DNA from: a bacterium
GTDB lineage: Bacteria; Arandabacterota; Arandabacteria; Arandabacterales; Arandabacteraceae
Length of the DNA: 64,000 bases
Direction: 5' to 3'
Assembly: GCA_029933125.1 (NCBI GenBank)
Contig: JAOZOU010000002.1
Span: forward strand, 62,001-126,000
The notes beneath the pieces were generated by a model. It did no database searches and had not been told where the DNA came from. It saw only the letters and a list, made by a program, of their open reading frames with translations. Below, piece by piece: positions 32,338-50,361 of this stretch; positions within the stretch are counted from its first letter, which is position 1; every line of letters starts with the position of its first letter. The position numbers and the translations under genes are program-made.

Positions 32338-32419
32338 GTGTGGTAAGGGTCCGATTGACGATCGGTTGTAGCAAGATGTGTGGTGAGTTTGGCTGTAGGA
32401 TGGTGAAGTGAGATCGACT

Positions 32420-33575: not shown

Positions 33576-34252
33576 GGAAGATAATTAGTGTACTGCTTCT
33601 TTCAATAGTGGCGGTGGGGATCTATCTCTCTGTGTCACACATACCATTCGGTGCCCCAAAGACCAAAGTGGGTGGACATTACGTTGAGCAGGGCATGGAG
33701 GAAACGGGAGCTGCCAATATGGTCACCTCCGTGGTGGTGATCTACCGTGGATTTGACACCCTTGGTGAGGTTACAGTTCTGTTCATCGCCGCCGTAGGAT
33801 TGGCAGCGGTTCTGGGGATTGCAGGACAGCAGGGCTTCCCAAGAGAGCCGGCTAGTTTTGTTCTGCGAAACGCTTGCGTAGTCATCTTCCCCCTGATCCT
33901 GCTTTGTGGAACCTATATCTTCGCCCATGGGCACCTGACCCCAGGGGGAGGGTTCCAAGGGGGGGTGGTCATCGCTTCGGCTTTTGTCTTGTCATACCTG
34001 GGTGGACGTGAGCGGAGAATAAGCAAGAGGCTATTTGGCTCGGTTGAATCTCTGGCAGGGTTGGTATTCGTGACGACCGGTTTGATAGGCCTGGCGGTCG
34101 GAGGATACTTCCTTAGCCGCATCCTGCCCAATGGGAGACCGTACAGTCTCCTGAGCGCAGGAATCATCCCGATAATCTACATTGCCATTGGATTCAAAGT
34201 GGGGTCAGAGCTCGCCGGGATAATTGACAACTTGATAGAGGAAACGAAATGA
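33572..34252 (+). CDS. mrpB: MbhE-MbhF-like fusion (MrpA tail plus MrpB)
   Basis: A 226-residue membrane protein joining two units. Residues about 1-90 resemble MbhE, the last helices of MrpA, with a G-A-A-N-M-V-T-S-V-V-V-I-Y-R-G-F-D-T-L-G-E segment. Residues about 95-226 are MrpB/MbhF with H-G-H-L-T-P-G-G-G-F-Q-G-G. The overlap with the preceding gene and the ATGA overlap with mrpC support tight coupling. The fused form is reported in some MBX-type clusters. Confidence 0.85.
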   Translation: MRKIISVLLLSIVAVGIYLSVSHIPFGAPKTKVGGHYVEQGMEETGAANMVTSVVVIYRGFDTLGEVTVLFIAAVGLAAVLGIAGQQGFPREPASFVLRNACVVIFPLILLCGTYIFAHGHLTPGGGFQGGVVIASAFVLSYLGGRERRISKRLFGSVESLAGLVFVTTGLIGLAVGGYFLSRILPNGRPYSLLSAGIIPIIYIAIGFKVGSELAGIIDNLIEETK

Positions 34253-34608
34253 CATTCTTAGAGAACTACGTTTTCTATGTTGGGGCATTTGGTCTCGTCC
34301 TGATAGGTCTTTTCACTATTCTTGTGAAGCGCAATCTCATCAAAGCCATCATTGGATTGGCTATCCTGGATACTGGAGTGAACCTGTTCCTGATCTCTGT
34401 GGGATACTTGGCAAGGGGAACAGCTCCAATTTACACGAGAGCTGAGCAAGGGGCTCAGCCTATGGTTGACCCTGTACCTCAGGCATTGGTTCTGACGGCA
34501 ATCGTGATCGGCGTGGCGGTTCTAGCGCTGGCACTTGCACTGGCAATCAGATTGTACCGTCACTACGGCACACTCGATCTTAGAAAGATAACTGAGCAAA
34601 GATGGTAA
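34249..34608 (+). CDS. mrpC: Mrp antiporter subunit C (MnhC/NuoK-like)
   Basis: A 119-residue NuoK/MrpC homologue with three transmembrane helices. The first contains G-L-V-L-I-G-L-F-T-I-L-V-K-R-N-L-I-K-A-I-I-G, the second has L-D-T-G-V-N-L-F-L, and the third is preceded by D-P-V-P-Q-A-L-V-L-T-A-I-V-I. Acidic and basic residues in the helices belong to the proton/cation path in this family. It overlaps its neighbours on both sides by 4 and 7 bases. Confidence 0.9.
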   Translation: MTFLENYVFYVGAFGLVLIGLFTILVKRNLIKAIIGLAILDTGVNLFLISVGYLARGTAPIYTRAEQGAQPMVDPVPQALVLTAIVIGVAVLALALALAIRLYRHYGTLDLRKITEQRW

Positions 34609-36086
34609 ATCCTGTATTGCTTATAGTGGTACCTTTAGGCTTCGCATTCTTGATCCCGATTCTGTCACTTCTCTCAAAGAAGGCAGCCAAGTACATTCCG
34701 CCGATCCCTCTTTGCTTCAACATCGTAGTCTCCCTTTTACTGTTACCTAGGGCACTGGAGAATCCAGTTGTCGTTTCCATTGGTGGATGGCAACCAGCGT
34801 TTTCTATCAATCTTGTTGCTGGCCCGGTAGGTATTCTCTTGTCGGCCGTCGTAGCCTTCGTGGGGCTGTTAGTCTCCATTTATGCCGTTGACTACATAAG
34901 AGAGGGGGCTACCGACCGGTATCATATGCTTTTCCTGCTGCTCCTAACTGGTGCCACTGGCGTGGTCCTGACAGGTGACATATTCAATCTGTTTGTCTTC
35001 TTTGAAATCCTCTGCATCTCCTCCTATGCCCTGGTGGCATATGCAGGAGACAAAGCTGGGATTGAGTCTGCGGTGAAATACCTGATTCAGGGTGCGGTTG
35101 GCTCGAGCCTTCTGCTCATAGGCATCGGCTTACTCTACGGTCTTTTCGGTACTCTCAACATGGCTGATATCGCCAAGGCACTGCAATCACCCAGTTCTCT
35201 GCCAGTGTTTGTTCCAATGGCTCTTATCATTTCGGGACTGGGTGTAGAGGCAGCCATTTTTCCATTGAACGGTTGGCTGCCCGATGCTCATTCATCTGCC
35301 CCATCGCCAGTGAGCGCGATTCTGTCTGGTATAGCAATTGAAGTAGGACTCTATGCCATTGCCAGAGTTGTGTTCACCATCTTTGGTCTGTCCATAGATT
35401 CTACATCGAACTTCCTCATGTTTCTGGCGGTCCTGGGCATTCTGACGCTGCTGGTAGGAGAAATGTGTGCTCTGGGTCAGAACAACATCAAGAGGATGCT
35501 CGCCTATTCAAGTATAGGCCAGATGGGCTTGATCCTGTTCGCTCTGGCTATGGCTAGCTCATATGCCGTGGTTGGTGGTTTGTTCCAGCTGGTGAGCCAC
35601 ACCCTTGCCAAGGCACTGCTGTTTCTGACAGTGGGCTATATGACTTATAGAACTCATTCTTTGGACGTATCAGCCCTCGCAGGAATCGGTAAGAGAATGC
35701 CCATCACCAGTTTGGCTTTTACCATAGGAGCATTTTCGCTGATAGGGCTGCCACCCTTCGCGGGTTTTCCCAGCAAGCTATTGATCGTTCGAGCGGCTTT
35801 GGCAACTAAGGAATGCCTATTCTTTGTGCTGATTGGAGGTGCCTTGCTGGGCACGGTAATCGAGGCTGCCTATTTCTTCAGAATTGTCCAGGTACTCTAC
35901 TTCAAGGATGGAAATACCAACATCGCGAGGAAGCAAGTTCCAGCTGTTGCTCTGATTCCCATTGTCATATTCGTCATATTGATCGTGGGTATCGGCATAT
36001 ACCCCAAGTTCATAACTGGTCTGTTGAGCTCTGCCGCCGCAGAGCTCTTGAACAGGGTTGACTATATCAGGAATGTACTAGGATGA
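34602..36086 (+). CDS. mrpD: Mrp antiporter subunit D (MnhD/MbxH-like)
   Basis: A 494-residue polytopic protein of the NuoN/NuoM/MrpD family with about 14 helices. Diagnostic segments are F-F-E-I-L-C-I-S-S-Y-A-L-V-A (with the key Glu of helix 5), the P-L-N-G-W-L-P-D-A-H-S-S-A-P-S loop, and K-R-M-L-A-Y-S-S-I-G-Q-M-G. It is the main ion-channel subunit. The start overlaps mrpC by 7 bases, and the stop overlaps the second antiporter-like gene by four. Two such proteins in tandem correspond to MbxH and MbxH' in archaeal clusters. Confidence 0.92.
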   Translation: MVNPVLLIVVPLGFAFLIPILSLLSKKAAKYIPPIPLCFNIVVSLLLLPRALENPVVVSIGGWQPAFSINLVAGPVGILLSAVVAFVGLLVSIYAVDYIREGATDRYHMLFLLLLTGATGVVLTGDIFNLFVFFEILCISSYALVAYAGDKAGIESAVKYLIQGAVGSSLLLIGIGLLYGLFGTLNMADIAKALQSPSSLPVFVPMALIISGLGVEAAIFPLNGWLPDAHSSAPSPVSAILSGIAIEVGLYAIARVVFTIFGLSIDSTSNFLMFLAVLGILTLLVGEMCALGQNNIKRMLAYSSIGQMGLILFALAMASSYAVVGGLFQLVSHTLAKALLFLTVGYMTYRTHSLDVSALAGIGKRMPITSLAFTIGAFSLIGLPPFAGFPSKLLIVRAALATKECLFFVLIGGALLGTVIEAAYFFRIVQVLYFKDGNTNIARKQVPAVALIPIVIFVILIVGIGIYPKFITGLLSSAAAELLNRVDYIRNVLG

Positions 36087-37951
36087 AGCCACAATTGATA
36101 CTGCTGATCGCCTTTGGGGGGGCCTTTCTTACCTACATATTCGGTAAGATCTCCAGTAAGCTCAGGGATGGAGCCGCCGTCGCCATATCGCTAGCACTGG
36201 TCGCCATATTTGCTTGCCTTTATGGCAGGCCCTTGCAGGAGAGTTTCTATTGGGGCTTCCTGGGCCTGAATCTCAGTCTTAGGCTGGATGCACTCTCTTG
36301 GTTCTTCGCTATTGCGATAGTCTCTTTAGGTGCTCTGTCTATCATCTTCTCGCTGAGGTACATGAGGGACAGAGAAAGGACTGACTTCTACTACTCGATG
36401 ATGCTCATGGTCAATGCGGCAATGCTAGGGATCGTTTTGTCAAATGATCTCATAAGTTTCTACATCTTCTGGGAAATGATGTCTTGGTGCACTTTCTTGT
36501 TGATAAGCTACAACCAGCACCGAGCGCTGGATGCCGGCATGAAGTACATCATCATGTCAATGATTGGCTCAGTTGCTATGCTTGCAGGGATCCTGTCGCT
36601 ATACGTTTCCTTTGACACCCTACTCATCCCGCAAATCGCTTCTAGTCTTGCCACCGCTTCTCCGGGCTATGTCCTGTTTGTCTTGGTTATTTTCGGCATA
36701 GCCTTCGGGATTAAGAATGCCATTATGCCCTTGCATACTTGGCTACCCGATTCTTATGCTGAGGCTCCCTCCCCATTCACGGCGGTACTCTCTGGCATGC
36801 TCACACGAATGGGTGTATACGGCCTTCTTCTGATCACCTACGTCATAGGAGGGATGATTGGGGGTACCGGGCTGGGTTCAAACGTGTCCAAATTCAACTA
36901 TGTCCTTGCCTGGCTTGGAGCGCTCACCATAGTTGTGCCCACCTTTATCGCCATGCTGCAGAACGATGCGAAACAGCTGCTTGCGTGGCACGGGATCGGG
37001 CAGGGCGGATACATGGTCTTGGGTATCGGTTTTGGCGTGGCTACTGCAAACAGTCTGGCTCTTGCTGGGGGAATCTTCCACACTCTTAATCACGCAATAT
37101 ATATAGTCCTTCTTTTCATGAGTGTGGCCGCGGTCCAGTACAGGACTGGTGGTGTGAGGGATCTCAACTCTCTGGGCGGTCTCGTTGCAAGAATGCCCGT
37201 TGCATTTGTTGGCGCTCTCCTGGGTATCTCCGGACTGATCGGATTACCTTTGACTAACGGGTTTGTCTCAAAATGGATGATCTATAAGGCATTGATTATC
37301 GAAGGACATCCCTTCTTAGCATTCGCCGCACTGATAGGGACTTGGGGAACTATACTGTCAGTCTATAAGTTCCTCCATAATATGTACCTTGGTCAACTTC
37401 CTGAGAAATACAAGCACCTCGAGAAGTCGCCATTCAGCATGCAGTTGCCTATTGCAGTGCTCTCGTCAGCCGTCGTTTTGTTTGGAATCCTTCCAGGTAT
37501 TCCTCTAAGAGTGATCAATAAAATTTGCACATGGCTGGGTTTCTCATCCCTGGATGTGACCATCTGGGGATTCACTTCCGAGACGGGTACGTTAAACACC
37601 ATAAACCTGCTTGCAGCTATAGTGGTAGTCAGCGCGGTCGTATGGGTGCTCTTCCACCGTGCTGCCAAATCGGTGGTCGTTGCTCAAGATGATAACTATG
37701 CTGCTGGTGCATATGTGCCTAGAGATAAGTATCATTACACAGCAGGATTCTACGAGCCTCTCTTCACAATGCTCAGACCCTACTTGAGAGACGTCGTAGA
37801 TGAATTCTACACAGCACTGGCAGGGGCTGTTAGGAAATCCTGTGGTGCAGTAAGGCGCATTTATACGGGGGACGTCGGCAATTATGTAACCTATATCATC
37901 CTGTTCCTTGCAAGCCTGATTCTTGTGCAGCTTAGGTGGAGACCATGGTAG
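36083..37951 (+). CDS. Second antiporter-like subunit (NuoL/MrpA-like, MbxH' equivalent)
   Basis: A 622-residue polytopic protein of the NuoL/MrpA/MrpD family. It shows F-W-E-M-M-S-W-C-T-F-L-L (helix 5 Glu), P-L-H-T-W-L-P-D-S-Y-A-E-A-P-S, and K-Q-L-L-A-W-H-G-I-G-Q-G-G. The C-terminal extension of about 130 residues ends in one more helix, like the lateral helix region of NuoL or MbxH'. It lies between the D subunit and the NuoH-like subunit, exactly where MbxH' is found, and should connect the antiporter arm to the redox arm. Its end overlaps the NuoH gene. Confidence 0.88.
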   Translation: MKPQLILLIAFGGAFLTYIFGKISSKLRDGAAVAISLALVAIFACLYGRPLQESFYWGFLGLNLSLRLDALSWFFAIAIVSLGALSIIFSLRYMRDRERTDFYYSMMLMVNAAMLGIVLSNDLISFYIFWEMMSWCTFLLISYNQHRALDAGMKYIIMSMIGSVAMLAGILSLYVSFDTLLIPQIASSLATASPGYVLFVLVIFGIAFGIKNAIMPLHTWLPDSYAEAPSPFTAVLSGMLTRMGVYGLLLITYVIGGMIGGTGLGSNVSKFNYVLAWLGALTIVVPTFIAMLQNDAKQLLAWHGIGQGGYMVLGIGFGVATANSLALAGGIFHTLNHAIYIVLLFMSVAAVQYRTGGVRDLNSLGGLVARMPVAFVGALLGISGLIGLPLTNGFVSKWMIYKALIIEGHPFLAFAALIGTWGTILSVYKFLHNMYLGQLPEKYKHLEKSPFSMQLPIAVLSSAVVLFGILPGIPLRVINKICTWLGFSSLDVTIWGFTSETGTLNTINLLAAIVVVSAVVWVLFHRAAKSVVVAQDDNYAAGAYVPRDKYHYTAGFYEPLFTMLRPYLRDVVDEFYTALAGAVRKSCGAVRRIYTGDVGNYVTYIILFLASLILVQLRWRPW

Positions 37952-38841
37952 GAAGAATCTTGCAATTCATCCTATATCCGCTTGTTGCGCTTGCGATAGG
38001 TGTGTTCTTCCTGGGGCTAGCGAGGAAGATCACGGCTAGGATACAGTGGCGCTATGGCCCTCCGCTCGTTCAGCCGGTTATTGATATGATCAGGCTCTTC
38101 TATCAGAAGAGTGTGTCGCATGGACCGGTGTTCGCCGTGGGTCTGATTATGTCCCTGGCGGGGTCCATAGTCGTTGTTCTGTTCCTGCCTTTCGGCTCCA
38201 TCTGCCCTCTCAGTGGGAGTGGTGGTCTACTTGTGGTTCTCTACGTTATGCTCTTGGCACCCATGGGTATTGCCCTGTCGGGAGGACAGGGTGCCAATCC
38301 CAACATCAGTATCGGGATATCCCGAAAGTTGATTCTTGCCTTGGGATACGAAGTGCCCTTCCTCCTGGTGTTGTTGACGGTTATGACTCACTACAACACG
38401 ATTTCCATTGTCCAGGTGGTAGAGGCTCAAAGAGACATAGGGTGGTCAATCGCCTCCCTTCCATTATTCTTGTCAGGAGTTTCGTACCTTCTCATTCTGC
38501 CTGCCATGTTGGGGTTCAGACCATTCGATGTGAGCACCGCTCCCCAAGAGATCTCTTCTGGGCCTCTGGTTGAATACGGTGGCAAATATTTGCTGATGGC
38601 AACGATTGAGCATGCTCTGTTGCTCTTCATCGACATTGCTCTTTTTGTAAACCTGTTCCTCGGTGGCGCAGGAAATCCGATCATCTTTTTCGTGAAGATG
38701 CTGATCGTATTCGTGCTTGTGCTATTCATTCATGCTGCATTTCCGAGGCTGAGGATCGAACAGGCTATCAGATATCTCTGGAAGTGGCCAACAGCATTGG
38801 CCCTTGCGGGGCTGATAATAGTCACAATTGGGAGGAGCTGA
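37945..38841 (+). CDS. NuoH-like membrane subunit (MbhM/MbxM type)
   Basis: A 298-residue membrane protein of the NuoH/HyfC/MbhM family with about eight helices. Segments include R-I-Q-W-R-Y-G-P-P-L-V-Q-P-V-I-D-M-I-R-L-F-Y, A-L-G-Y-E-V-P-F and F-R-P-F-D-V-S-T-A-P-Q-E-I-S-S-G-P-L-V-E-Y-G-G-K. This subunit anchors the hydrophilic redox arm and forms the start of the ion path. The ATG at 37945 has an AGGTGG site five bases upstream. A GTG at 37936 is an alternative but sits on that site. The length and loops resemble energy-converting hydrogenase-related complexes more than NADH dehydrogenase. Confidence 0.88.
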   Translation: MVGRILQFILYPLVALAIGVFFLGLARKITARIQWRYGPPLVQPVIDMIRLFYQKSVSHGPVFAVGLIMSLAGSIVVVLFLPFGSICPLSGSGGLLVVLYVMLLAPMGIALSGGQGANPNISIGISRKLILALGYEVPFLLVLLTVMTHYNTISIVQVVEAQRDIGWSIASLPLFLSGVSYLLILPAMLGFRPFDVSTAPQEISSGPLVEYGGKYLLMATIEHALLLFIDIALFVNLFLGGAGNPIIFFVKMLIVFVLVLFIHAAFPRLRIEQAIRYLWKWPTALALAGLIIVTIGRS

Positions 38842-38844
38842 GAG

Positions 38845-39420
38845 TTGGACAGAAATCAAATTGCAAAGTGGTTCAAAGAGCCTTCTAAGATGGCAAATAA
38901 GTACTCCTTGCATGCGATATACTTTTGCACCGGCTGCGGCATAATTGAAGTACCGCCCGTAATAACGGCGAGATGGGACGCGGAGAGGTTCGGTGTCATA
39001 CCAGTAGCTACGCCTAGACAGGCAAACCTGTTCCTGATAACGGGATATGTCTCAGTGAAAACCCTGAAGGCGATCATCAGAACCTATGAGCAAATGTATG
39101 AACCCAAGTACACTGTTGCGTTTGGCTCATGTCCAATAAACGGCGGAATGTACTGGGATTCCTATAACACCATAAAACATTTGGATAAGTACATCCCGAT
39201 CGATGGCTGGATAGCCGGCTGTATGCCGAGGCCAGAGGCGATATTCGTTGCTGTGACGCATCTGTGGACGCTTATCGACAAAGGAATGGCAAATGGTTAC
39301 GAGAGGTACAAGAAGTACTACCGAGCCTACAGGCGAAACCAAGAGCTGGCTCTTGGTAAGTTGGAATGGCCTCCACTGTATCCGATAGGCGAGCACACAG
39401 AAGGAGGCGAATGTGATTGA
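38845..39420 (+). CDS. NuoB-like [4Fe-4S] subunit (MbhJ/MbxJ type)
   Basis: A 191-residue NuoB/hydrogenase small-subunit homologue carrying the cluster next to the catalytic subunit. The four ligands can be read: Cys28 and Cys31 in C-T-G-C-G, Cys96 in G-S-C-P-I-N-G-G, and Cys126 in G-C-M-P-R-P-E. The first pair is C-x-x-C as in energy-converting hydrogenases and MBX, not the C-C pair of true complex I. Translation starts at TTG (38845) behind a clear GGAGGAG site. The C-terminal 40 residues are basic. It overlaps the NuoC gene by 8 bases. Confidence 0.9.
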   Translation: MDRNQIAKWFKEPSKMANKYSLHAIYFCTGCGIIEVPPVITARWDAERFGVIPVATPRQANLFLITGYVSVKTLKAIIRTYEQMYEPKYTVAFGSCPINGGMYWDSYNTIKHLDKYIPIDGWIAGCMPRPEAIFVAVTHLWTLIDKGMANGYERYKKYYRAYRRNQELALGKLEWPPLYPIGEHTEGGECD

Positions 39421-39928
39421 GCAACTGAAACGGGAATTGGAAGCGACATTCAAGGGCGTCTCCGTAACCTCGGAGGCAGACAGACGTATTACAGTAGTAG
39501 TTGATCCGTTACAGGCTCTTGCGCTCCTCAGGTTTTTCAAGGACAGGGGATTCAGTCATCTTGCGCTCCTATCCGCAGTGGACCTCATAGATAAACATGC
39601 GTTTGAACTCGTTTACGTACTTACAAGCTACGTTGAAGATACTGGTGAGGATGCGGTCCCGGGCGAGCTGATTCTGGTAGTAAAGTCTATGATTCCCAGA
39701 GACAAGCCTACATTCAAATCCGTCATCAGCATCTATCCGAATGCGGAGCCTTATGAGCGGGAAATACATGAGTTATTCGGAATTCACTTTGATGGTCACC
39801 CAAGACTGACACCACTTTTTCTCGAAAGGCAGTATCCAATTCCACCATTTCGGAAAGATTTTGACACTAGGAGATATGTCGAGGATGTCTTCGGTAGCAT
39901 TCCAGCCATCGGCGATGAGGAAGGATAG
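39413..39928 (+). CDS. NuoC-like subunit (MbhK/MbxK type)
   Basis: A 171-residue NuoC-family protein, a structural subunit of the peripheral arm. It has L-L-S-A-V-D-L-I-D near residue 60, then Y-P-N-A-E-P-Y-E-R-E-I-H-E-L-F-G-I-H-F-D-G-H-P and L-F-L-E-R-Q-Y-P-I-P-P-F-R-K-D-F, the family signature. It starts at GTG (39413) after an AAGGAGG site; the overlapping ATG is followed at once by a stop. A possible small gene and then the NuoD-like gene follow. Confidence 0.9.
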   Translation: MIEQLKRELEATFKGVSVTSEADRRITVVVDPLQALALLRFFKDRGFSHLALLSAVDLIDKHAFELVYVLTSYVEDTGEDAVPGELILVVKSMIPRDKPTFKSVISIYPNAEPYEREIHELFGIHFDGHPRLTPLFLERQYPIPPFRKDFDTRRYVEDVFGSIPAIGDEEG

Positions 39929-40115
39929 GGCAGGACTGTTGATAGGATGCGTATCCGAGAGGGTTTGTCCGCCCCGGCGCGGACTGCGAATACGCATGGT
40001 GGCTAATATGGGGCGCATCGTCACATCGAAGGTAAAACACCAGGAAAGCGGTAAGATCGTCTTGAAGAAGTACCTGGGGAAGGATGCGGCACATGAATGG
40101 CACTTCGGAGAATAA
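39915..40115 (+). CDS. Possible small protein between NuoC- and NuoD-like genes
   Basis: An open frame of 66 residues fills the 164-base gap between two complex subunits, overlapping the first by 14 bases and the second by 23. The product is basic, with one Cys pair (G-C-V-S-E-R-V-C) and a C-terminal K-K-Y-L-G-K-D-A-A-H-E-W-H-F-G-E segment. No family is recognised. An AGGAAGG motif falls just inside its start rather than before it. It may be spurious, or a small accessory subunit. Confidence 0.3.
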   Translation: MRKDRAGLLIGCVSERVCPPRRGLRIRMVANMGRIVTSKVKHQESGKIVLKKYLGKDAAHEWHFGE

Positions 40116-41226
40116 GACGAGCGGATCATCAAGGGAGCTCGAGCTCTATTTCGGACCTCAGCACTTAGGCATGGTCGGTAATTTCAGTATTACCCTCAAG
40201 GTTGAAGGCGATCGCATATTGGAGGCACGAGCGAATCCGGGCTTCCTCCACAGGGGTTTTGAGAAACTGATGGAGTACAGAACTTGGATACAGAACTTTC
40301 CGATGGTCTGCAGGATAAACGTAATAGAGTCAGGCTCCATGGAGATGATCTATTCCATGGCTGTGGAGAGTCTGGCGCAGATAGAGGTGCCAGAACGGGC
40401 ACACTATGTAAGAAGCATCTACCTGGAACTTTGCAGGGTGAGCTCGCACCTTTTTGGTCTGTGGGCTTATTCAAACATGCTCGGATTCGATACTGTGGCA
40501 CAATGGGCAATGTATCACAGAGACCTTATCCTCGATCTGCTGGAGGAGCTGACCGGTGGAAGGGTATACAACATATTCATATGGCCAGGAGGGGTTCGGC
40601 GCGATTTTCCCAAAGGCTTCGAAGATAGAATAGTCGAGACACTTCATACCATAGGAAGCTGCGTACCCGACTACAATACTGCCTTCTTCGATAACCGCAT
40701 TTTCTATGAGCGATCAAAGGGAATAGGGAAGATTACCCAGCAAGAGGCGAAGGAGCTGGGTGCCACTGGGCAGACCCTGAGAGCGACCGGCTTGAAGTTC
40801 GACATAAGGAAGGTAGCGCCATATGCCGCCTACGACAAAGTGGAGTGGGATGTGCCCGTGAGAGAGGATGGTGACGCATATTCAAGGATATTAGTGATAA
40901 GGGATGAAATGATCGAAAGTGTCCACATGATATTCAAGCTCCTTGAAGCTATGCCTCAAGGACCTGTTTACAATCGCATACCGAATCCTTTCAAGTGGAA
41001 AATACCCCCTGGTGACACCTATGTAAGATGTGAATCATCGCGAGGGGAGCTGGGACTCTACCTAGTAAGCGATGGTGGAGAGAGGCCATACCGGGTACAT
41101 TTCAGAACACCTTCATACACAAATGGCCTCATCTTGTTGGAGAAACTGCTTCAAGGGGCAAGCATCGCCGATGTCGGGAACATTATGATCAGCCTCTACG
41201 TTGTGGCGCCGGAGATAGACAGATGA
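40093..41226 (+). CDS. NuoD-like catalytic-fold subunit lacking a NiFe site (MbxL type)
   Basis: A 377-residue member of the NuoD/hydrogenase large-subunit fold. G-P-Q-H near residue 21 and G-F-L-H-R-G-F-E-K-L are conserved. Where NiFe enzymes have C-x-x-C near the N-terminus this protein has Cys73 followed by R-I-N. The C-terminal C-x-x-C is replaced by V-V-A-P-E-I-D-R. Three of four metal ligands are missing, so hydrogenase activity is excluded and an MBX/MBS- or Nuo-like role is expected. The ATG at 40093 is preferred because GGGGAAGG lies 9 bases upstream; the ATG at 40084 abuts that site. It overlaps the ferredoxin-GltD gene by four bases. Confidence 0.9.
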   Translation: MNGTSENKTSGSSRELELYFGPQHLGMVGNFSITLKVEGDRILEARANPGFLHRGFEKLMEYRTWIQNFPMVCRINVIESGSMEMIYSMAVESLAQIEVPERAHYVRSIYLELCRVSSHLFGLWAYSNMLGFDTVAQWAMYHRDLILDLLEELTGGRVYNIFIWPGGVRRDFPKGFEDRIVETLHTIGSCVPDYNTAFFDNRIFYERSKGIGKITQQEAKELGATGQTLRATGLKFDIRKVAPYAAYDKVEWDVPVREDGDAYSRILVIRDEMIESVHMIFKLLEAMPQGPVYNRIPNPFKWKIPPGDTYVRCESSRGELGLYLVSDGGERPYRVHFRTPSYTNGLILLEKLLQGASIADVGNIMISLYVVAPEIDR

Positions 41227-43094
41227 AACAGAACGAGGAAAGGGGAACGGGCAGCCTCCTCAGGCCATTGAAGACGATTGGCTTTGTGCTCAGGATACCG
41301 CAGACCCTGCGGTATCCCTTCGAACCCAAGGAGCCTGCGCCGAGATATCGGGGGTTCCATCTCAACGATTGGGAGAAGTGCACAGGCTGCGGCAATTGTG
41401 CGGAAATCTGTCCGAACCAAGCTATCAATATGGTGGAAATAGCCGAAATACAACCTAAGCCCGGTATGAAGAACGAACGTCCGCAGCTGGACTACGGCAG
41501 GTGCTGCTTTTGCGGCTTGTGCGTCGATATTTGCCCAGCGGGTTCATTGAGGCTATCGAGGGACTATTTCCATATTCATTTCGATCCGAAGACCTTTGTC
41601 TTCGTGCCCCAAGATGACAAGACGGACCACGAGCACTTTTACCCCATCGAGCAATACTCCATATTCAAGGCAAGCCTTACCCATCGCAGGCAAGATTATG
41701 AGGGCTTCAGTCCGGATCTAAATTTTGCTCTGTTCGATCCCCAACGCGTACCTATGAAGGAGGTGGAACCTGACAAGAGGGTACTATCGTTCGTAGAACA
41801 GGTCTTGGGATATGACCGCGAGGAAGCACGGGCCGAAGCCTCGAGATGCCTGGAGTGCAAGCTTTGCGAGGAAGCATGCCCTGCTCACATGAAGATATCG
41901 GACTATATCAAGGCAATCTATGAGGACCAGCCAGCCGAAGCGCTCAGACAGATATTTGAGGACAATCCGATACCATCCATCTGTGGCAGAGTATGCATGA
42001 AGCACTGCGAAAAAGCATGTTCCTTGAGCATTAGGGGTGAACCTCTAGCCATAAGGTGGCTCAAGAGATACGTTGCTGATTCGATCACGGATTATCAAGT
42101 TGCCCTCGAGCAGAAGACTGCTGAACCTAGTGGCAAGAAAGTTGCAGTTATTGGTGCAGGTCCAAGCGGACTCTCGGTTGCCTACTTTCTTTCTTTGAAG
42201 GGCCACAAGGTAGTGGTTTTCGATTCCTTGCCTGGTGGTGGGGGGACACTGCGTGTCGGACCGCCCCTTTACAGACTACCACTTGAAGCGATCGATAAGG
42301 ATGTCGATTACATTGCCTCTCTGGGAGTCGAATTCAGATTCAATACAACAGTAGGTAAAGATGTGCTCTTCGAAGACATTCTGAAGGGCTACGACGCTGT
42401 CTTCGTTGGCGTAGGAACAAGAGTCAGTCGATCCACGAAAGTAACGAATAGCGACAGAGCCTACTTGGCACTCCCCTTCCTTGAGCAAAACAAGCTTGGC
42501 AAACCTGTGAAAGTGGGCAAGGAAGTGATCGTTATCGGTGGTGGAAACGTGGCCATCGATGTTGCTAGAGTAGCGCTGCGCTTGCAGCATATACAATATC
42601 CGAATGAAGCGGTCGTAACCAAGGTCGTGTCTCTGGAGGATTGGGATGAGATGCCAGCAACCAAGGAAGAGATCGAGGACGCTAAGGCAGAGGGAATCCA
42701 ATTCAATCCTGGATGGGGACCTAAGGAAATCAAAGTCGCAGACGGTGAAGTGCGAGGCCTCCTTTGCATGAAGGTGAAGGCAGTGTTTGATGAGGCGGGG
42801 CGGTTCAACCCCACTTTCTACGAGGATGAGCTGATGTTCCTCGAAGGTGACATGGTGATCGAAGCGATCGGCCAACGGGCTGATTTCTCTTTTATTCCTC
42901 AGCAAATCCTTGAGAAGCTCGAATTCACCGCCTGGGGAAAGGTCAAGGTCGATGAAAATGGGATGACCACAATCCCTGGCATCTTTGCGGGTGGTGATAT
43001 AGTCAATCTCAACCTGGATGCCGTCACTGCCATTGCCGATGCCAAGGTGGCTGCGGAAGGAATTGACAAGTGGCTTCGCAGGAAAACTACATAA
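41223..43094 (+). CDS. NuoI-like ferredoxin fused to GltD/NfnB-type NAD(P)H flavoprotein
   Basis: A 623-residue fusion. Residues about 1-150 are a NuoI/MbxN-like subunit with two C-x-x-C-x-x-C-x-x-x-C-P cluster motifs beginning at residues 53 and about 95. Residues about 160-620 form a GltD/NfnB-type oxidoreductase. It has an N-terminal Fe-S domain (C-L-E-C-K-L-C-E-E-A-C-P near 210, C-G-R-V-C near 254), an FAD site G-A-G-P-S-G-L near 310, and an NAD(P)H site I-G-G-G-N-V-A-I-D-V-A-R near 438. The C-terminal FAD contact is F-A-G-G-D-I. The subunit that normally receives electrons from ferredoxin therefore carries its own pyridine-nucleotide module, in place of NuoEFG. It overlaps the preceding gene by four bases. 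Confidence 0.9.
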   Translation: MKQNEERGTGSLLRPLKTIGFVLRIPQTLRYPFEPKEPAPRYRGFHLNDWEKCTGCGNCAEICPNQAINMVEIAEIQPKPGMKNERPQLDYGRCCFCGLCVDICPAGSLRLSRDYFHIHFDPKTFVFVPQDDKTDHEHFYPIEQYSIFKASLTHRRQDYEGFSPDLNFALFDPQRVPMKEVEPDKRVLSFVEQVLGYDREEARAEASRCLECKLCEEACPAHMKISDYIKAIYEDQPAEALRQIFEDNPIPSICGRVCMKHCEKACSLSIRGEPLAIRWLKRYVADSITDYQVALEQKTAEPSGKKVAVIGAGPSGLSVAYFLSLKGHKVVVFDSLPGGGGTLRVGPPLYRLPLEAIDKDVDYIASLGVEFRFNTTVGKDVLFEDILKGYDAVFVGVGTRVSRSTKVTNSDRAYLALPFLEQNKLGKPVKVGKEVIVIGGGNVAIDVARVALRLQHIQYPNEAVVTKVVSLEDWDEMPATKEEIEDAKAEGIQFNPGWGPKEIKVADGEVRGLLCMKVKAVFDEAGRFNPTFYEDELMFLEGDMVIEAIGQRADFSFIPQQILEKLEFTAWGKVKVDENGMTTIPGIFAGGDIVNLNLDAVTAIADAKVAAEGIDKWLRRKTT

Positions 43095-43148: not shown

Positions 43149-45524
43149 ATGAGAATCGGTGTATACGTCTGTCACTGCGGTGGGAACATATCTGATACTG
43201 TCGATGTTCAGGCAGTGGCATCATTCGCAGAAAATCAACCGGATGTTGTCTTGGTACGGGATTACTCGCATATGTGCTCTGAGGTTGGTCAGAAGATGAT
43301 ATGGGATGGCATCACCGACCACAAATTGGATAGAGTCGTTATTGCCGCTTGTTCACCGCAGTTTCACGAGAACACTTTCATGGCGACGGTTGAGAAGGCA
43401 GGCTTGTCCCCATATGTCTTGGAGATAGCTAACATCCGTGAGCAATGCGCGTGGCCGCACTTCGACCTTCCTGAAGCCGCAACTGAGAAGGCCAAAGACC
43501 TTGTTGGAATGTCTATAGCAAAAGCTAGGCTGGATGAGGCACTGGCAAAAAGGACTATGCCCATCGGAAAGAGGGTTTTAGTGGTGGGGGGCGGTATTGC
43601 TGGCATTCAGGCATCACTCGATCTGGCTGATGCAGGATTCAAGGTCTATCTTGTGGAGAAAGAGCCAACAATAGGTGGCAAAATGGCTAAGCTGTCTAGG
43701 ACCTTCCCCACCGAAGATTGTGCAGCATGCATACTCTCACCCAAGATGGCAGACGTCCCAGCCAATCCAAACATAGAGCTGCTAACCTTCACAGAAATAG
43801 AAGAAATAACTGGGTATCTTGGCAACTACGAGGTAACCGTCGTCAAGAAACCCAGATACGTCGATACTGAAAAATGCACAGCATGTGGCAAATGCACTGA
43901 GGTTTGTCCTGTAGTGGTTCCTAATGAATATGAAGAGGGGCTCACTTCCAGGAAGGCTATATACCTGCCGTCACCTATAGCAGTGCCACACAGCTTTATC
44001 CTTGATGATCAGGCATGCCTTGGACTTTTCCCTATGGCATGCGAGCGGTGCTCCGAGGTTTGTGAGCCCAACGCGATAAACTATGATGACACCCCTGAAC
44101 GAGTGAAATTCACAGTGGATACAATTATTGTTGCCACCGGTTTTGATATCTTCGATGCAAGGGGGAAGAAAGTCTATGGAATTGAGCACTCAAGAAATGT
44201 GATCACAGCCCTCGATATGGAGCGCCTCATAGTGCATGCGTCAGAAGGTAAGCCATTAAGGCCTATAGGCAAGAGGATTGCATTCATTCAGTGTGTTGGA
44301 TCGAGAGATGAACAAGTCGGAAACGAGCATTGCTCGAGAATCTGCTGTATGTACGCTACCAAATTATCACAGCTGCTCAAGCGTTCCGATCCCAGCCGAG
44401 ATGTTTACGTTTTCTACACCGATCTCAGGGCATACGGCAAAGGCTTCGAAGAGTACTACAAGAGAGCGCAGAGAACAGGAGTCAAGTTCATTAGAGGACG
44501 AGTTGCTGAAGTCAATAGTAGTTCCAGTGATGGGAAGGTCACTCTAAAAGTGGAAGACACGCTTACACGGCAGATTATTGAGGCGGATTTCGATTTGGTG
44601 GTGCTTTCAGTTGGGCTGTTACCGGGCGAAGGTACTAAGCAAATCGCTAGGATTCTGAAACTAGCGGAGAGCCCGGATGGATTCCTTCAAGAAGCACATC
44701 CTAAGTTCAGACCTGTCGATACCCTCGCAGATGGTGTATTCATTTGCGGATGTGCACAAGGTCCTAAGGATATTCCTGACACAGTGGCTCAAGCAAGTGC
44801 TGCTTCTTCAAGGGCAATTAGGCTCATGAACAAGGGGGAGTATGACATAGCTCCGGTGATTGCGTTCGTTCACGATGACCTGTGCAATGGCTGCGGAGAA
44901 TGCATTGGGCATTGCCCCTTCGGTGCCTTGGTTCTCACGCAGACTGCATCTGTGAACGAGGCTGTCTGCCGCGGGTGCGGCAGTTGCATTTCATCATGCC
45001 CCACTGATGCTCTGGATTTGCATTGTTACACTAATGAGCAACTCTTGGCAGTGGTCCGTGCTTCTATGGACAGTAAGCAAGAAGGTGAGATCAGGATACT
45101 GGTGTTCGCTGACGATCAAACCACTTATCGGTTGGCGGATAACGTCGGCACAGGAAAGCTTTCGTACTCTTCACAAACACGCATAATTCGTGTGCCAAGC
45201 GGTGCCAGGGTTACGCCGAAGCTGATGCTGCAGGCCTTTGAACTTGGCGCAGACGGCATATTCATCGGTGAGAGTGAGGAGAAATCGTCTCCTTACCCTC
45301 ACAGCGTTGCAACCATAAAGAAAAACGTAGCCGCTGTAAGGGATGCTTTGTCGAAGAGGAACATAGAGCCAGAAAGGATACGCTACGCAGAATTCGTGAC
45401 TGTAATGCTGGGGGCATTTGTAAATCAGCTCAACGGCCTATGCGACTTTGCCAGATCTTGCGGACCCATATCCGCTGACCAGAGGCGTGGGTTGGCGCAC
45501 GATCAGGTAGAACTGAAGCAGTAG
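43149..45524 (+). CDS. hdrA: HdrA-like flavin/iron-sulfur subunit with degenerate MvhD tail
   Basis: A 791-residue heterodisulfide reductase A homologue, the flavoprotein that can bifurcate electrons. Visible parts in order: V-C-H-C-G-G at the N-terminus; FAD-binding V-G-G-G-I-A-G-I-Q-A near 144; E-D-C-A-A-C-I-L-S-P; a cluster motif C-T-A-C-G-K-C near 243; C-E-R-C-S-E-V-C; and two ferredoxin-type clusters near 579 and 607. Residues about 640-765 align with MvhD, including the F-E-L-G-A-D-G-I-F-I segment, but the cysteines that bind the [2Fe-2S] cluster in MvhD are gone. An AAGGAG site precedes the ATG. HdrC, HdrB and a fumarate reductase pair follow. Confidence 0.92.
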   Translation: MRIGVYVCHCGGNISDTVDVQAVASFAENQPDVVLVRDYSHMCSEVGQKMIWDGITDHKLDRVVIAACSPQFHENTFMATVEKAGLSPYVLEIANIREQCAWPHFDLPEAATEKAKDLVGMSIAKARLDEALAKRTMPIGKRVLVVGGGIAGIQASLDLADAGFKVYLVEKEPTIGGKMAKLSRTFPTEDCAACILSPKMADVPANPNIELLTFTEIEEITGYLGNYEVTVVKKPRYVDTEKCTACGKCTEVCPVVVPNEYEEGLTSRKAIYLPSPIAVPHSFILDDQACLGLFPMACERCSEVCEPNAINYDDTPERVKFTVDTIIVATGFDIFDARGKKVYGIEHSRNVITALDMERLIVHASEGKPLRPIGKRIAFIQCVGSRDEQVGNEHCSRICCMYATKLSQLLKRSDPSRDVYVFYTDLRAYGKGFEEYYKRAQRTGVKFIRGRVAEVNSSSSDGKVTLKVEDTLTRQIIEADFDLVVLSVGLLPGEGTKQIARILKLAESPDGFLQEAHPKFRPVDTLADGVFICGCAQGPKDIPDTVAQASAASSRAIRLMNKGEYDIAPVIAFVHDDLCNGCGECIGHCPFGALVLTQTASVNEAVCRGCGSCISSCPTDALDLHCYTNEQLLAVVRASMDSKQEGEIRILVFADDQTTYRLADNVGTGKLSYSSQTRIIRVPSGARVTPKLMLQAFELGADGIFIGESEEKSSPYPHSVATIKKNVAAVRDALSKRNIEPERIRYAEFVTVMLGAFVNQLNGLCDFARSCGPISADQRRGLAHDQVELKQ

Positions 45525-45532
45525 GAGGCAGT

Positions 45533-45937
45533 ATGGCAAACAGGCTTATGATTTCGACTGGAAACGAGGAATTCCTCGAGCGGATAAGCGAAATGAGCGG
45601 CCAGATCATAACGCTATGCGAACAGTGCGGGGTATGTTCTGGAAGTTGTCCAATGGTTTCGGAGATGGACATAACACCGTCCCAGATGATGAGAATGGTT
45701 CAACTAGGGCAGAGTGAGGTTCTGCGCGCAAAGACAATCTGGTTGTGCGCTTCGTGTTTCACGTGCACTGTGCGATGCCCTCGTGGCCTCGACCTTTCCA
45801 AGGTAGCCGAGGCATTGCGGCAGGTAATCCTCAGACAAGCGGTCGATCATATTGATATCAAGGCTCTCCCCAGGGATGAGCTAGTCGAACTCCCGCAGAT
45901 TGCACTGGTGGCCGGCATGAGGAAATTCACTGGCTAG
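45533..45937 (+). CDS. hdrC: HdrC-like ferredoxin subunit
   Basis: A 134-residue HdrC homologue with two complete [4Fe-4S] motifs: Cys29, 32, 35 and 39, and Cys72, 75, 78 and 82. It passes electrons between HdrA and the CCG subunit HdrB. It is cytoplasmic, with no membrane helix, unlike membrane HdrE/DsrM-linked systems. The gene begins 8 bases after hdrA with an AGGAGG site and ends 12 bases before hdrB. Confidence 0.92.
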   Translation: MANRLMISTGNEEFLERISEMSGQIITLCEQCGVCSGSCPMVSEMDITPSQMMRMVQLGQSEVLRAKTIWLCASCFTCTVRCPRGLDLSKVAEALRQVILRQAVDHIDIKALPRDELVELPQIALVAGMRKFTG

Positions 45938-45949
45938 GAGGACTTTGAA

Positions 45950-46840
45950 ATGGAGCCTGATATCCATAAATTCCCCTACTATCCGGGGTGCACCCTAAAG
46001 ACTACCGCCCGTAACTTTGAAGTATCCGCCCTGGCGTGTGCCAAGAAACTAGGGATAGAGCTGGTGGAGCTTCCAAGGTGGAATTGTTGCGGCACTGTTT
46101 TCTCGCTGACAGATGATGATCTAATCCATCATGTGGCTGCGGTAAGAAACCTTATCCGTGTGCAGGAAATGAATCGAGACGGGATGGTAGAGGAGAATAG
46201 ACTGGTGACGCTTTGCTCAATGTGCTTCAACACCTTGAAGCGAGTGAACCTATTGGTTAAGGAGAACCCCGAGAACCTCGAGAAGATCAATAACTTCATG
46301 TATTTGGAAGATGACTATGAGGGAAACGTTGAGGTCATACACTTTCTGGAATTGCTGAGAGAACTGGACCCCGGTGCAATATCCCAAAGGGTCGAGAGGC
46401 CGCTTACCGGGCTGAGGGTAGCACCCTACTATGGGTGCCTGATGCTAAGGCCAAGGGAGGTCGGCATTGACGATCCCGAGGAACCGACGATTCAAGGTGC
46501 TATATTGGCTGCTGTGGGAGCAGAGGTGATTTACAACAGTTACATGAAGGTATGCTGCGGTAGCTACCAGACAGTGAATGACAAGTCTGCAGTTGCCCGG
46601 TTGGTATATGATATCCTTAGCCATGCTCAGGCTGACGGGGCACAGGCAATAGTCACCTCGTGCCCTCTCTGTGCCTACAATCTTGACAGCCGGCAGAAAG
46701 AAGTCAGGGAGATCTATCCTGATTTCGAGCAGATTCCAGTTTTCTATTTTACCCAACTGATGGCCGTGGCCTTCGGCTTCGGAGCAGACTTATGCGGATT
46801 CGATCCAAATCAGTTAGTCCCCGAGCATTTGCTCAAGTAG
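45950..46840 (+). CDS. hdrB: HdrB/SdhE-like CCG-domain subunit
   Basis: A 296-residue protein with two complete CCG motifs. The first has Cys14, Cys46-Cys47, Cys89 and Cys92. The second has Cys163, Cys202-Cys203, Cys238 and Cys241. In HdrB these hold noncubane [4Fe-4S] clusters that cleave the CoM-CoB disulfide. In type E succinate dehydrogenases the related SdhE takes the place of a membrane anchor. Gene order here (hdrA, hdrC, this gene, sdhB, sdhA) fits both roles. The archaeal thiol:fumarate reductase carries the same domain fused to its B subunit. An AGGAGGA site precedes the ATG. No membrane helix is present. Confidence 0.9.
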   Translation: MEPDIHKFPYYPGCTLKTTARNFEVSALACAKKLGIELVELPRWNCCGTVFSLTDDDLIHHVAAVRNLIRVQEMNRDGMVEENRLVTLCSMCFNTLKRVNLLVKENPENLEKINNFMYLEDDYEGNVEVIHFLELLRELDPGAISQRVERPLTGLRVAPYYGCLMLRPREVGIDDPEEPTIQGAILAAVGAEVIYNSYMKVCCGSYQTVNDKSAVARLVYDILSHAQADGAQAIVTSCPLCAYNLDSRQKEVREIYPDFEQIPVFYFTQLMAVAFGFGADLCGFDPNQLVPEHLLK

Positions 46841-46886
46841 GTTTAGAGTTTGTCGGAATAGGGAGTAATAGAAGCAGGAGATTGCC

Positions 46887-47642
46887 ATGAAGACTGAAGA
46901 GAGCATCATGCAGCGAATTGCCGATGCTGCGAAGGCCGTCACCAGGGGTGTAGATGCTAAAGATATCGAGCACTGGGTGACCATCTACATAATGGGAAGG
47001 GCTTACAAGGTGCCTGCAGATCTAACCATATTGACTGCCATGGAGTATGCGGGCTACAGATTCGTGAGAGGTGTGGGTTGTCGGCAGGGCTTCTGCGGTG
47101 CATGTTCGACAGTATACCGAAAAGAGGGTGAGTACAAGCTTCAAACAGGGATGGCCTGCCAGACAAGGGTTGAGGACGGAATGTACCTGGTTCAGATACC
47201 TTTCGCGCCCGCAGAAAAAGCTGCCTATGACATAAGCAAGGAAAGCTATGATGCATCAGTTTTTCTCAAGTTCTACCCCGAGGTAGCGAGGTGTGTGTCT
47301 TGCAACACCTGTACCAAGTCATGCCCCCAGGATTTGGAAGTAATGGATTACGTCCAAGCCGCGATAAGAGGGGATTTCCAATCCCTGGCGGAGGGCTCTT
47401 TCGACTGCATCCAGTGTGGTCTGTGCGCTATGAGATGCCCAGCTGACATCGTGCAGTACAACGTTGCTCAACTAGGCAGAAGGATGTATGGCAGATACGG
47501 GATGCCTGTACCCAAGCACCTTATTACACGTTTGCAAGAGATAGAAGCTGGCAAATTCAGGGGAAAAATGGATCAGCTTGTGGCTGTCCCAAGAGAGCAG
47601 CTGGAGAAGCTTTATGCGAGTCGAGTGAGGGAGGCAGACTAA
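46887..47642 (+). CDS. sdhB: SdhB/FrdB/TfrB-like iron-sulfur subunit
   Basis: A 251-residue iron-sulfur subunit of a succinate dehydrogenase/fumarate reductase. The N-terminal [2Fe-2S] site uses Cys65, 70, 73 and 91. The C-terminal part has Cys136, 139, 142, 146 and Cys174, 177, 180, 184. Ordinary SdhB proteins lack a Cys equivalent to Cys177 and therefore hold a [3Fe-4S] cluster. Here a full set is present, so a second [4Fe-4S] cluster is likely, as in soluble thiol-linked enzymes. It lies 46 bases after hdrB and 1 base before sdhA. No sdhC or sdhD anchor gene is present. Confidence 0.88.
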   Translation: MKTEESIMQRIADAAKAVTRGVDAKDIEHWVTIYIMGRAYKVPADLTILTAMEYAGYRFVRGVGCRQGFCGACSTVYRKEGEYKLQTGMACQTRVEDGMYLVQIPFAPAEKAAYDISKESYDASVFLKFYPEVARCVSCNTCTKSCPQDLEVMDYVQAAIRGDFQSLAEGSFDCIQCGLCAMRCPADIVQYNVAQLGRRMYGRYGMPVPKHLITRLQEIEAGKFRGKMDQLVAVPREQLEKLYASRVREAD

Positions 47643-47643
47643 C

Positions 47644-49314
47644 ATGGGGAAGAAGACCACTGGGATCAGATATGTCGGGGGTTACCCTGAATACATGCGG
47701 AAACTGATATCCATTGTTCACAAGACCAGGGCAAAAAGGAGAGACTACACGCCTCCTCCTATGACCAAGGAGGAGCAGGAGGAGGTGCTAAAGCTGCATC
47801 CAGATTATGCCCCTGGGGGTAAAAGGACCATATCTGTTGGTCCCAACAAGGGTGATATCGGTCCAACCGAAGTTGTAGATCTAGTCGAAGCTTATCCTCT
47901 TGTGGAGGAGGGGGAGATTGATCTGTCAAAGGTGGACTATAGTCCTGACATTCTCATAATAGGTGGCGGCCTTGCCGGGACATCGGCAGCCATTTGGGCA
48001 AATGACAGTGGTATTCCCAAAGAAAAGATCTTGCTTACGAACAAACTAAGGCACGGGGATGCCAATTCGATAATGGCCGAGGGCGGCACCCAAGCCGCGG
48101 ACCGTAGCGTCGACTCTCCAGAAAGACATTTCATCGACACGATTGGAGGTGGGCACTTCGCAAACAAACCGGACGTAGTGAGAGCCCTAGTAGAAGATGC
48201 ACCACTCATAATCCGCTGGCTGCTTGACCTCGGTGCAATGTTCGACCGCGAAGAAAATGGGGATTTCGTTGAGAAGTGGGGTGGTGGCACGTCCATAAAG
48301 AGATTGCACTCATGCAGGGATTACACGGGGCTTGAGGAGATGAGGGTGATAAGGGATGAGCTGAGAAGCCGAGGAATCCCATGTATCGAACACTTCCCTG
48401 CCATTGAGCTTCTCACGGATGGCGAAAACAGAGTCACTGGAGCTGTGCTCTGGAACCTTGAAACAGGTGAATATAAGATAGTCAAGGCGAAAGCCACGAT
48501 CCTGGCCACGGGTGGGTTTGGCAGACTACACATTCGAGGGTTCCCAACTACCAATCACTATGGTGCTACATGCGATGGTGTAGTAATAGCTTATCGTGCA
48601 GGCGCCAGGCTCAGAGACATCGATACAGTGCAATACCACCCAACAGGTGCTGCATATCCCATCCAGATTGTAGGTTATCTGCTCACTGAGAAGCTCAGAA
48701 GTTCGGGGGCTCAGCCTGTGAACAAGGATGGAGAAGCATTTGTATTCCCTTTAGAGCCGAGGGATGTGGAAGCAGCTGCGTTGATCAGAGAATGCTATGT
48801 TCGGAACAAGGGTATTACCACGCCGACCGGATTGAGAGGGGTATGGCTTGACACCCCTTTGATCGAAGAAAAGAATGGCGAGGGTTATATCGATAAGGCA
48901 TTTCCGGGCATGAGGAGAATGTTTGCTAGGTTCGACATCGATATGCGGAAGGATCCCGTGCTTGTATTCCCGACCCTCCATTACCAGAACGGTGGGATTG
49001 AAACAGATCCACATGGGAAAACCAATGTCGAGGGATTATGGGTAGCTGGTGAGGTGTCGGGCGGAGTACATGGCAAGAATAGGCTTATGGGGAATTCAAC
49101 GTTGGATTGCCTAGTTTTCGGAAGGAGAGCAGGTATCTCAGCAGCTGAGTACGTGAAGTCGGGTCGGGGGGGTGGGGCGCTGACCTTGAAGCATGTAACG
49201 GGCTATGTTAAGGATCTTGAGCGAGCAGGTATCAGACCTGAAAGAAGATCTCCCATACTTCTCCCCGACTATAGGGGTAGGGCTGCCCTTGCGAGGATGA
49301 TAGATGTGTTCTAG
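47644..49314 (+). CDS. sdhA: SdhA/FrdA/TfrA-like flavoprotein subunit
   Basis: A 556-residue flavoprotein. The FAD dinucleotide site is I-I-G-G-G-L-A-G-T near residue 107. The segment A-N-S-I-M-A-E-G-G (140-148) carries Asn141 where covalently flavinylated SdhA has His, so FAD is probably held non-covalently. Substrate-site elements Q-Y-H-P-T-G, H-Y-Q-N-G-G-I and H-G-K-N-R-L-M-G-N-S are present, supporting fumarate or succinate chemistry. An N-terminal extension of about 95 residues precedes the flavin domain. It ends the 17.5-kb cluster. Direction (fumarate reduction or succinate oxidation) cannot be read from sequence. Confidence 0.88.
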   Translation: MGKKTTGIRYVGGYPEYMRKLISIVHKTRAKRRDYTPPPMTKEEQEEVLKLHPDYAPGGKRTISVGPNKGDIGPTEVVDLVEAYPLVEEGEIDLSKVDYSPDILIIGGGLAGTSAAIWANDSGIPKEKILLTNKLRHGDANSIMAEGGTQAADRSVDSPERHFIDTIGGGHFANKPDVVRALVEDAPLIIRWLLDLGAMFDREENGDFVEKWGGGTSIKRLHSCRDYTGLEEMRVIRDELRSRGIPCIEHFPAIELLTDGENRVTGAVLWNLETGEYKIVKAKATILATGGFGRLHIRGFPTTNHYGATCDGVVIAYRAGARLRDIDTVQYHPTGAAYPIQIVGYLLTEKLRSSGAQPVNKDGEAFVFPLEPRDVEAAALIRECYVRNKGITTPTGLRGVWLDTPLIEEKNGEGYIDKAFPGMRRMFARFDIDMRKDPVLVFPTLHYQNGGIETDPHGKTNVEGLWVAGEVSGGVHGKNRLMGNSTLDCLVFGRRAGISAAEYVKSGRGGGALTLKHVTGYVKDLERAGIRPERRSPILLPDYRGRAALARMIDVF

Positions 49315-50350: not shown

Positions 50351-50361
50351 ATCATCCTAGC

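Follow-up and report, generated by a model that had tools for sequence, protein, structure and literature searches.

The membrane-bound complexes MBS and MBX, thought to be driven by ferredoxin, have been described as intermediate in evolution between hydrogenases and complex I. Two features set MBS apart (PMC7684303): a shortened motif provides only three ligand cysteines for the proximal [4Fe-4S] cluster, the first cysteine of the MbsJ motif being a non-ligand, and the quinone residues His38 and Tyr87 are missing. GltD-like modules are devices that pass electrons from NAD(P)H to a partner via low-potential clusters (PMC8097209). Here we describe a locus that combines the two. The window analyzed (64,000 nucleotides; positions 62,001 to 126,000 of contig JAOZOU010000002.1, assembly GCA_029933125.1, from a bacterium of the Arandabacteraceae) contains a conserved operon of 13 mostly overlapping genes (31816-43094, + strand), and its last gene (41223-43094, +) encodes a 623-residue protein in which a NuoI-like subunit, the counterpart of MbsN, is fused to a GltD-like flavoprotein. 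The sequence itself shows the architecture, the operon and the ligands, and also that the quinone residues, the [NiFe] residues and the NADPH motif have been lost; the use of NADH, the substrate, the ion and the direction of the reaction we infer. We consider the chances evenly balanced that the complex is an ion-translocating NADH:polysulfide oxidoreductase operating near equilibrium.

A NuoI-like subunit fused to a GltD-like flavoprotein

The fusion is a single open frame from an ATG at 41223 to a stop at 43094, and its start lies in an ATGA that overlaps the stop of the NuoD-like gene by four bases. Three Pfam domains were found in the protein: a dicluster ferredoxin (Fer4_7, residues 52-107, 9e-14), the Fe-S domain of GltD and DPD (Fer4_20, 189-290, 9e-29) and a pyridine nucleotide-disulphide oxidoreductase (Pyr_redox_2, 305-604, 5e-25). 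All eight NuoI-type cysteines (53, 56, 59, 63; 94, 97, 100, 104) and all eight of the GltD domain (209, 212, 215, 219; 254, 258, 262, 266) are kept, which amounts to ligand sets for four [4Fe-4S] clusters. The GxGxxG motif for flavin adenine dinucleotide (FAD; 311-316), GGGN (439-442) and GGD (590-592) are also present, and most of these cysteines and motifs were invariant in an alignment of 31 relatives. The features of the GltD-like class, namely the Fer4_20 cysteines and the dinucleotide-binding motifs for FAD and NAD(P), are all found, in agreement with a preliminary description that had read two NuoI-like clusters, a GltD-type Fe-S domain and sites for FAD and NAD(P)H in the 623-residue chain. 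The AlphaFold2 model was confident (mean pLDDT 86, pTM 0.83) except for the poor residues 1-31, and its nearest PDB structure was the large subunit of Pyrococcus furiosus NfnI (E 1e-46, TM 0.86 on the target).

The top NCBIfam match covered the full length of the protein and was NF010590/PRK13984, named only "putative oxidoreductase". The score, 705 bits, lies below the curated cut-off of 946, and the fusion is by this measure a divergent relative of that family; the next matches, to GltD-like and to NuoI models, covered the halves. Among 14 control genomes a strong PRK13984 match (E < 1e-180, over the curated cut-off) was obtained only in Thermotoga maritima. The earlier statement that no standard complex was known to carry such a fusion was not sustained, given the full-length family, the T. 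maritima match and the MBX/MBS type of the operon.

When one genome per species was scanned, 65 loci encoding a relative came up, most of them with the full fusion, in the Planctomycetota, Zixibacteria, KSB1, Cloacimonadota, Eisenbacteria, Fermentibacteria, Bacteroidota, Spirochaetota and other phyla, in Proteobacteria including Thiomargarita and Chromatiaceae, and in one metagenome-assembled genome (MAG) of the Thermoplasmata. In all, about 60 genomes have this architecture. MAGs of sulfur oxidizers (Chromatiaceae, Thiobacillus) have the fusion together with the operon. The database check of domain order and gene context proposed beforehand returned the same fusion in many phyla within a conserved gene order. 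Two other possibilities raised at that stage, that an assembly error had merged two genes and that the fusion occurred only here, were rejected: a same-genus MAG carries it at 96% identity, and the 64 further loci, most with the full fusion, come from dozens of independent genomes and assemblies. In the small phylum of the host, the fusion was found only in two genomes of the host's genus, and in the tree the window protein groups with Planctomycetota sequences; the limited presence together with this grouping suggests horizontal transfer.

The ion-pumping arm and the probable nucleotide

The operon genes map one to one, and in order, onto the 13 subunits of MBS (subunit table: PMC8415708). 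Among 30 relatives whose upstream sequence reaches 9.5 kb or more, 24 have all 12 partner genes by tblastn, and the NuoD-like gene is the direct neighbor of the fusion in 53 of the 56 loci for which that flank is available, two reverse-orientation loci included. None of NuoE, NuoF and NuoG is encoded in the operon (three NuoF-like proteins elsewhere in the host genome score under the family cut-off), and no conserved gene was found 3' of the fusion among the relatives compared. Since this downstream flank is not conserved, the 13 genes look self-sufficient. The proposal that a pyridine-nucleotide flavoprotein replaces NuoEFG on the ion-pumping arm is supported by this gene content.

For all six subunits compared with PDB, the best match among chains of the respective kind was in the MBS structure 6U8Y. 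These were the NuoD-like subunit (MbsL; 40084-41226, +; 6u8y_L, 339 bits versus 260 for complex I), the NuoB-like subunit (MbsJ; 38845-39420, +; 6u8y_J, 217 bits versus 122), the NuoH-like membrane anchor (MbsM; 37936-38841, +; 6u8y_M, 215 bits versus 64 for complex I), the MrpD/NuoN-like antiporter subunit (MbsH; 34602-36086, +; 6u8y_H, 332 bits versus 273 for MBH), the NuoL/M-like antiporter subunit (MbsH'; 36083-37951, +; 6u8y_X, 246 bits versus 195 for MBH) and, for the fusion, its NuoI domain.

The proximal-cluster motif of the NuoB-like subunit, FCTGCGIIE, aligned without gaps to FCTGCGGIE of MbsJ, with the other ligand cysteines kept. In the relatives the first cysteine is often replaced by A, S or G and the second is retained in MBX-type rows, whereas a hydrogenase-like NuoB paralogue in a Zixibacteria genome (L013) has a three-residue insertion in the motif. 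A proximal cluster with only three usable cysteine ligands, as in MBS, is predicted. In the NuoD-like subunit, valine occupies the positions of both His38 and Tyr87 of Nqo4, and RINV and ...YVVAPEIDR stand where the [NiFe] cysteine motifs would be. With no [NiFe] cysteine left and both pairs of the large subunit absent, a group 4 [NiFe] hydrogenase (MBH) was rejected. The N2 tandem-cysteine motif of complex I is absent from the complex, and the menaquinone markers MqnA and MenD gave no match in the host genome (96.7% complete). Because of the MBS-type motif, the two valines and the missing menaquinone markers, a quinone substrate is unlikely, and a sulfane-sulfur substrate as in MBS is the best inference. 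These residues and scores place the arm with MBS, the sulfane-sulfur type, and not with the quinone type.

The solved NADPH-using relatives, NfnI and T. maritima NfnL, carry in our alignments an Arg-Arg pair (YRR) following strand two of the NAD(P)-binding domain. At this site the window fusion reads Val-Ser-Leu-Glu, and in the model the GGGN nucleotide-binding loop is followed by a strand, residues 465-470, whose end lies just ahead of Glu472. Of 61 readable fusions, 58 have Leu-Glu as the pair and one has Leu-Gln; the other two, the deep-branching L063 and L077, both adjoining the same NuoD-like partner, have Arg-Arg, and a change of nucleotide preference within the family is possible. Escherichia coli PreT, annotated as NAD(+)-dependent, has Arg-Glu at the site and is in part like the fusion. 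Rex is a repressor that senses the NADH/NAD+ ratio, and Rex genes (PF06971 + PF02629) lie directly 5' of MrpE in half of the 16 clade-A loci with MrpE (L014, L018, L020, L021, L028, L031, L032 and L034; six called by Pfam, the others by tblastn similarity), which belong to several phyla. On these two independent lines, Leu-Glu in place of YRR and Rex upstream, the fusion would use NADH more likely than NADPH. The sequence of the fused input subunit suggests NADH, and neither ferredoxin nor NADPH, as its source of electrons.

Proposed reaction and competing readings

In the proposed mechanism, the MbsN/NuoI-like input subunit bears the GltD-like module at its C-terminus, and NADH would deliver a hydride to the FAD of this module. 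From there electrons would travel one at a time, first along the two [4Fe-4S] clusters of the GltD module and then along the two of the NuoI type, and reach the proximal cluster of the NuoB-like subunit, where polysulfide (sulfane sulfur) would be cleaved reductively in the NuoB/NuoD/NuoH chamber, as in the MBS of P. furiosus. Protons or sodium ions would be moved by the coupled Mrp-like distal arm and the two antiporter-like subunits. The textbook potentials of NADH (about -320 mV) and polysulfide (about -260 mV) are close, hence the operation near equilibrium. Fermenters could reduce sulfur with the complex; in sulfur-oxidizing relatives it could run backwards and form NADH from reduced sulfur, which is plausible because the driving force with NADH is small.

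Two observations fit a role in sulfur metabolism and do not prove it. The mbxA transcripts of T. maritima rise with S0 (PMC9431562), and a rhodanese-like gene lies directly 5' of the fusion in a Thiomargarita MAG (L057:9622-9948), near which the remaining operon genes were undetected.

Several points weigh against an NADH:polysulfide oxidoreductase. With NADH as donor, only about 12 kJ/mol would be available at standard potentials, which is little for a pump. An acidic residue after strand beta-2 is a usual but fallible sign of NADH use, and PreT retains one Arg at the YRR site. No Rex was found in the host genome (no match to the Rex N-domain), where the operon carries an ArsR gene instead, and no Rex-like operator stood above chance near the window operon. 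The rhodanese beside the fusion is a single case, and no sulfur gene is conserved adjoining the operon among the relatives. No measured activity of a fusion-bearing complex was found in the literature, and the MBX of T. maritima is assumed to take its electrons from ferredoxin (PMC9431562).

In a different reading, which we regard as unlikely, ferredoxin stays the donor and the GltD module serves as a side exit or second entry, giving a ferredoxin:NAD(P)+ oxidoreductase or a dual-carrier complex. The ferredoxin-driven archaeal MBS, the T. maritima assumption and the intact NuoI clusters of the fusion speak for it, as does the earlier naming of P. furiosus Mbx as a ferredoxin:NADP+ oxidoreductase (PMC6349859). 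Nevertheless, the side of NuoI where ferredoxin would dock is probably taken up by the fused module, and electrons that went from ferredoxin to NAD+ by way of just the NuoI clusters would skip the proximal cluster and the membrane-coupling loops.

It is distinctly improbable that the FAD of the GltD-like module bifurcates as in NfnL, splitting the electrons of NADH or NADPH between the pump and another acceptor, for example ferredoxin or the neighboring HdrABC. Arg351, invariant in the fusions, stands at the position of the FAD N5-binding Arg of bifurcating NfnB (T. maritima Arg187; PMC6405883); however, the same Arg is present in PreT (FRLP) and Arg351 is undiagnostic. The top structural matches of the model are bifurcating enzymes, and an HdrA gene lies 54 bases 3' of the fusion, but HdrABC genes adjoin the fusion only in the host genus, and an NfnS-like partner, with a [2Fe-2S] cluster and a second FAD, was found neither in the operon nor conserved beside it.

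We give little credit to an acceptor other than polysulfide in the chamber, another disulfide or some unknown electrophile. The two cysteines remaining in MbsL are gone from the window NuoD-like subunit, the hosts are very diverse and no sulfur gene is conserved next to the operon; yet the activity of MBS is independent of those two cysteines (PMC7684303), and the window NuoB-like subunit retains the proximal-cluster motif. A simplified complex I, that is, an NADH:quinone oxidoreductase whose GltD module replaces NuoEFG, has in its favor that NuoBCDHI and the antiporter subunits broadly resemble those of complex I, and is the least probable reading weighed here, with both quinone head-group residues (criterion: PMC7684303) and the N2 motif lost, MBS outscoring complex I for each subunit tested and no MqnA or MenD match in the host.

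If the NADH:polysulfide oxidoreductase is extended to the whole family, a tentative proposal follows, to which we attach a rather low probability: a widespread and unrecognized class of bacterial respiratory complexes, NADH-specific, reversible and ion-translocating, in which the preference switched from NADPH (basal YRR members) to NADH. If this were true, fermenters would dump the electrons of NADH on sulfur with a gain of energy, and sulfur-oxidizing Proteobacteria would make NADH from reduced sulfur by reverse operation. An NADH module built into the complexes of a broad bacterial branch would amount to an independent NADH input for an ancient ion-pumping arm, parallel to NuoEFG. The assumption that the Thermotoga MBX uses ferredoxin is put in question and is directly testable, and the family name "putative oxidoreductase" would conceal a role in an NADH-linked ion pump.

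Operon, neighborhood and known systems

The remaining operon genes, all on the + strand, encode the distal arm and the NuoC-like subunit. The MrpE-like gene (MbsA; 31816-32337; Pfam MNHE 4e-39) is syntenic in relatives and is followed by the MrpF-like (MbsB; 32686-33006; MrpF_PhaF 1e-19), MrpG-like (MbsC; 33007-33339; PhaG_MnhG_YufB 5e-26) and MbhD-like genes (MbsD; 33177-33575; MbhD 1e-18). Because the match to Pfam MbhD is confined to residues 63-129 of the mechanical open reading frame, the last of these genes probably starts close to 33336. Then come the MbhE/MrpB-like (MbsE; 33572-34252; MnhB 5e-24, MbhE 3e-9) and MrpC/NuoK-like genes (MbsG; 34249-34608; Oxidored_q2 6e-27) and, after the antiporter, anchor and NuoB-like genes, the NuoC-like gene (MbsK; 39413-39928; Complex1_30kDa 5e-29). 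The ArsR-family gene (32408-32689; HTH_5 8e-15 and alignment) is an additional insertion between MrpE and MrpF. Its Cys36 and Cys75 were invariant in eight aligned sequences, most of which adjoin the same operon, and the regulator is a candidate thiol or sulfur sensor.

Starting 54 bases 3' of the fusion, genes for HdrA2 with an MvhD-like C-terminus, HdrC, HdrB, an SdhB-like and an SdhA-like protein occupy 43149-49314 on the same strand, followed by a fragment of an IS110-type transposase (50338-50892). This block is possibly an HdrABC-linked fumarate reductase-like complex. HdrA was also found beside the fusion in the same-genus genome (L029, L074) and in no other relative; a part for the HdrABC/SdhAB-like genes in the complex was unsupported, as they adjoin the fusion only in the host genus. 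Other genes 3' of the fusion are rubrerythrin-like in four clade-B loci (L047, L051, L057, L064) and dihydroorotate-dehydrogenase-like in two (L045, L060). In two Zixibacteria the fusion is followed after a few kb by another NuoH-B-C-D-M cluster of distant relationship (L012:16151-21833; L013:7728-13381), that of L013 with the longer, hydrogenase-like NuoB motif. The host genome itself has a second Mrp/Mbh-type set (L092, G000:C42:438500-457000), in which the NuoI-like protein stands alone and the NuoD-like subunit is 38% identical.

The closest described system is the MBS/MBX of P. furiosus (6U8Y), a membrane-bound sulfane sulfur reductase, with which the window complex shares the 13 subunit types, the best PDB matches, the proximal-cluster motif and the loss of His38 and Tyr87. 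The two differ in that MbsN is short and faces ferredoxin, whereas its window counterpart has the GltD-like NAD(P)H module, and in that MbsL keeps the residual [NiFe] cysteines C85 and C385, absent from the window NuoD-like subunit. T. maritima has an MBX with 13 subunits, as in the window operon (PMC9431562); a PRK13984 protein of that species scores above the cut-off of 946 bits, and the window fusion, with 705 bits, lies below. Complex I (NuoA-N) shares homologous NuoB, C, D, H and I and antiporter subunits; by comparison, the window complex is without NuoE, F and G and without the quinone head-group residues, and its distal membrane arm is Mrp-like. The GltD-like family (NfnL/NfnI, GltD, DPD, PreT, AegA) shares Fer4_20 and the FAD/NAD(P) fold with the fusion, the Nfn large subunits at 34-36% identity (TM 0.85-0.86 on the target). 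The fusion departs from this family by Leu-Glu in place of YRR and by its partner, the NuoI domain of an ion pump and not GltB, NfnS or a dihydroorotate-dehydrogenase-like domain. A putative Mrp-Mbx has also been named in the Riftia symbiont (Endoriftia), a gammaproteobacterial sulfur oxidizer (PMC11636981).

In the openly available portions of the literature on MBX, only ferredoxin-based descriptions were found and a fused NAD(P)H module was not mentioned; subscription papers mostly lay outside this search, and a published description may exist. Already known, then, are the MBS/MBX kind of complex, the 13-subunit MBX of T. maritima, the putative Mrp-Mbx of the Riftia symbiont and an NCBI family without a function. 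What is new is the evidence for NADH and the near-universal presence of the module in this bacterial branch of MBX.

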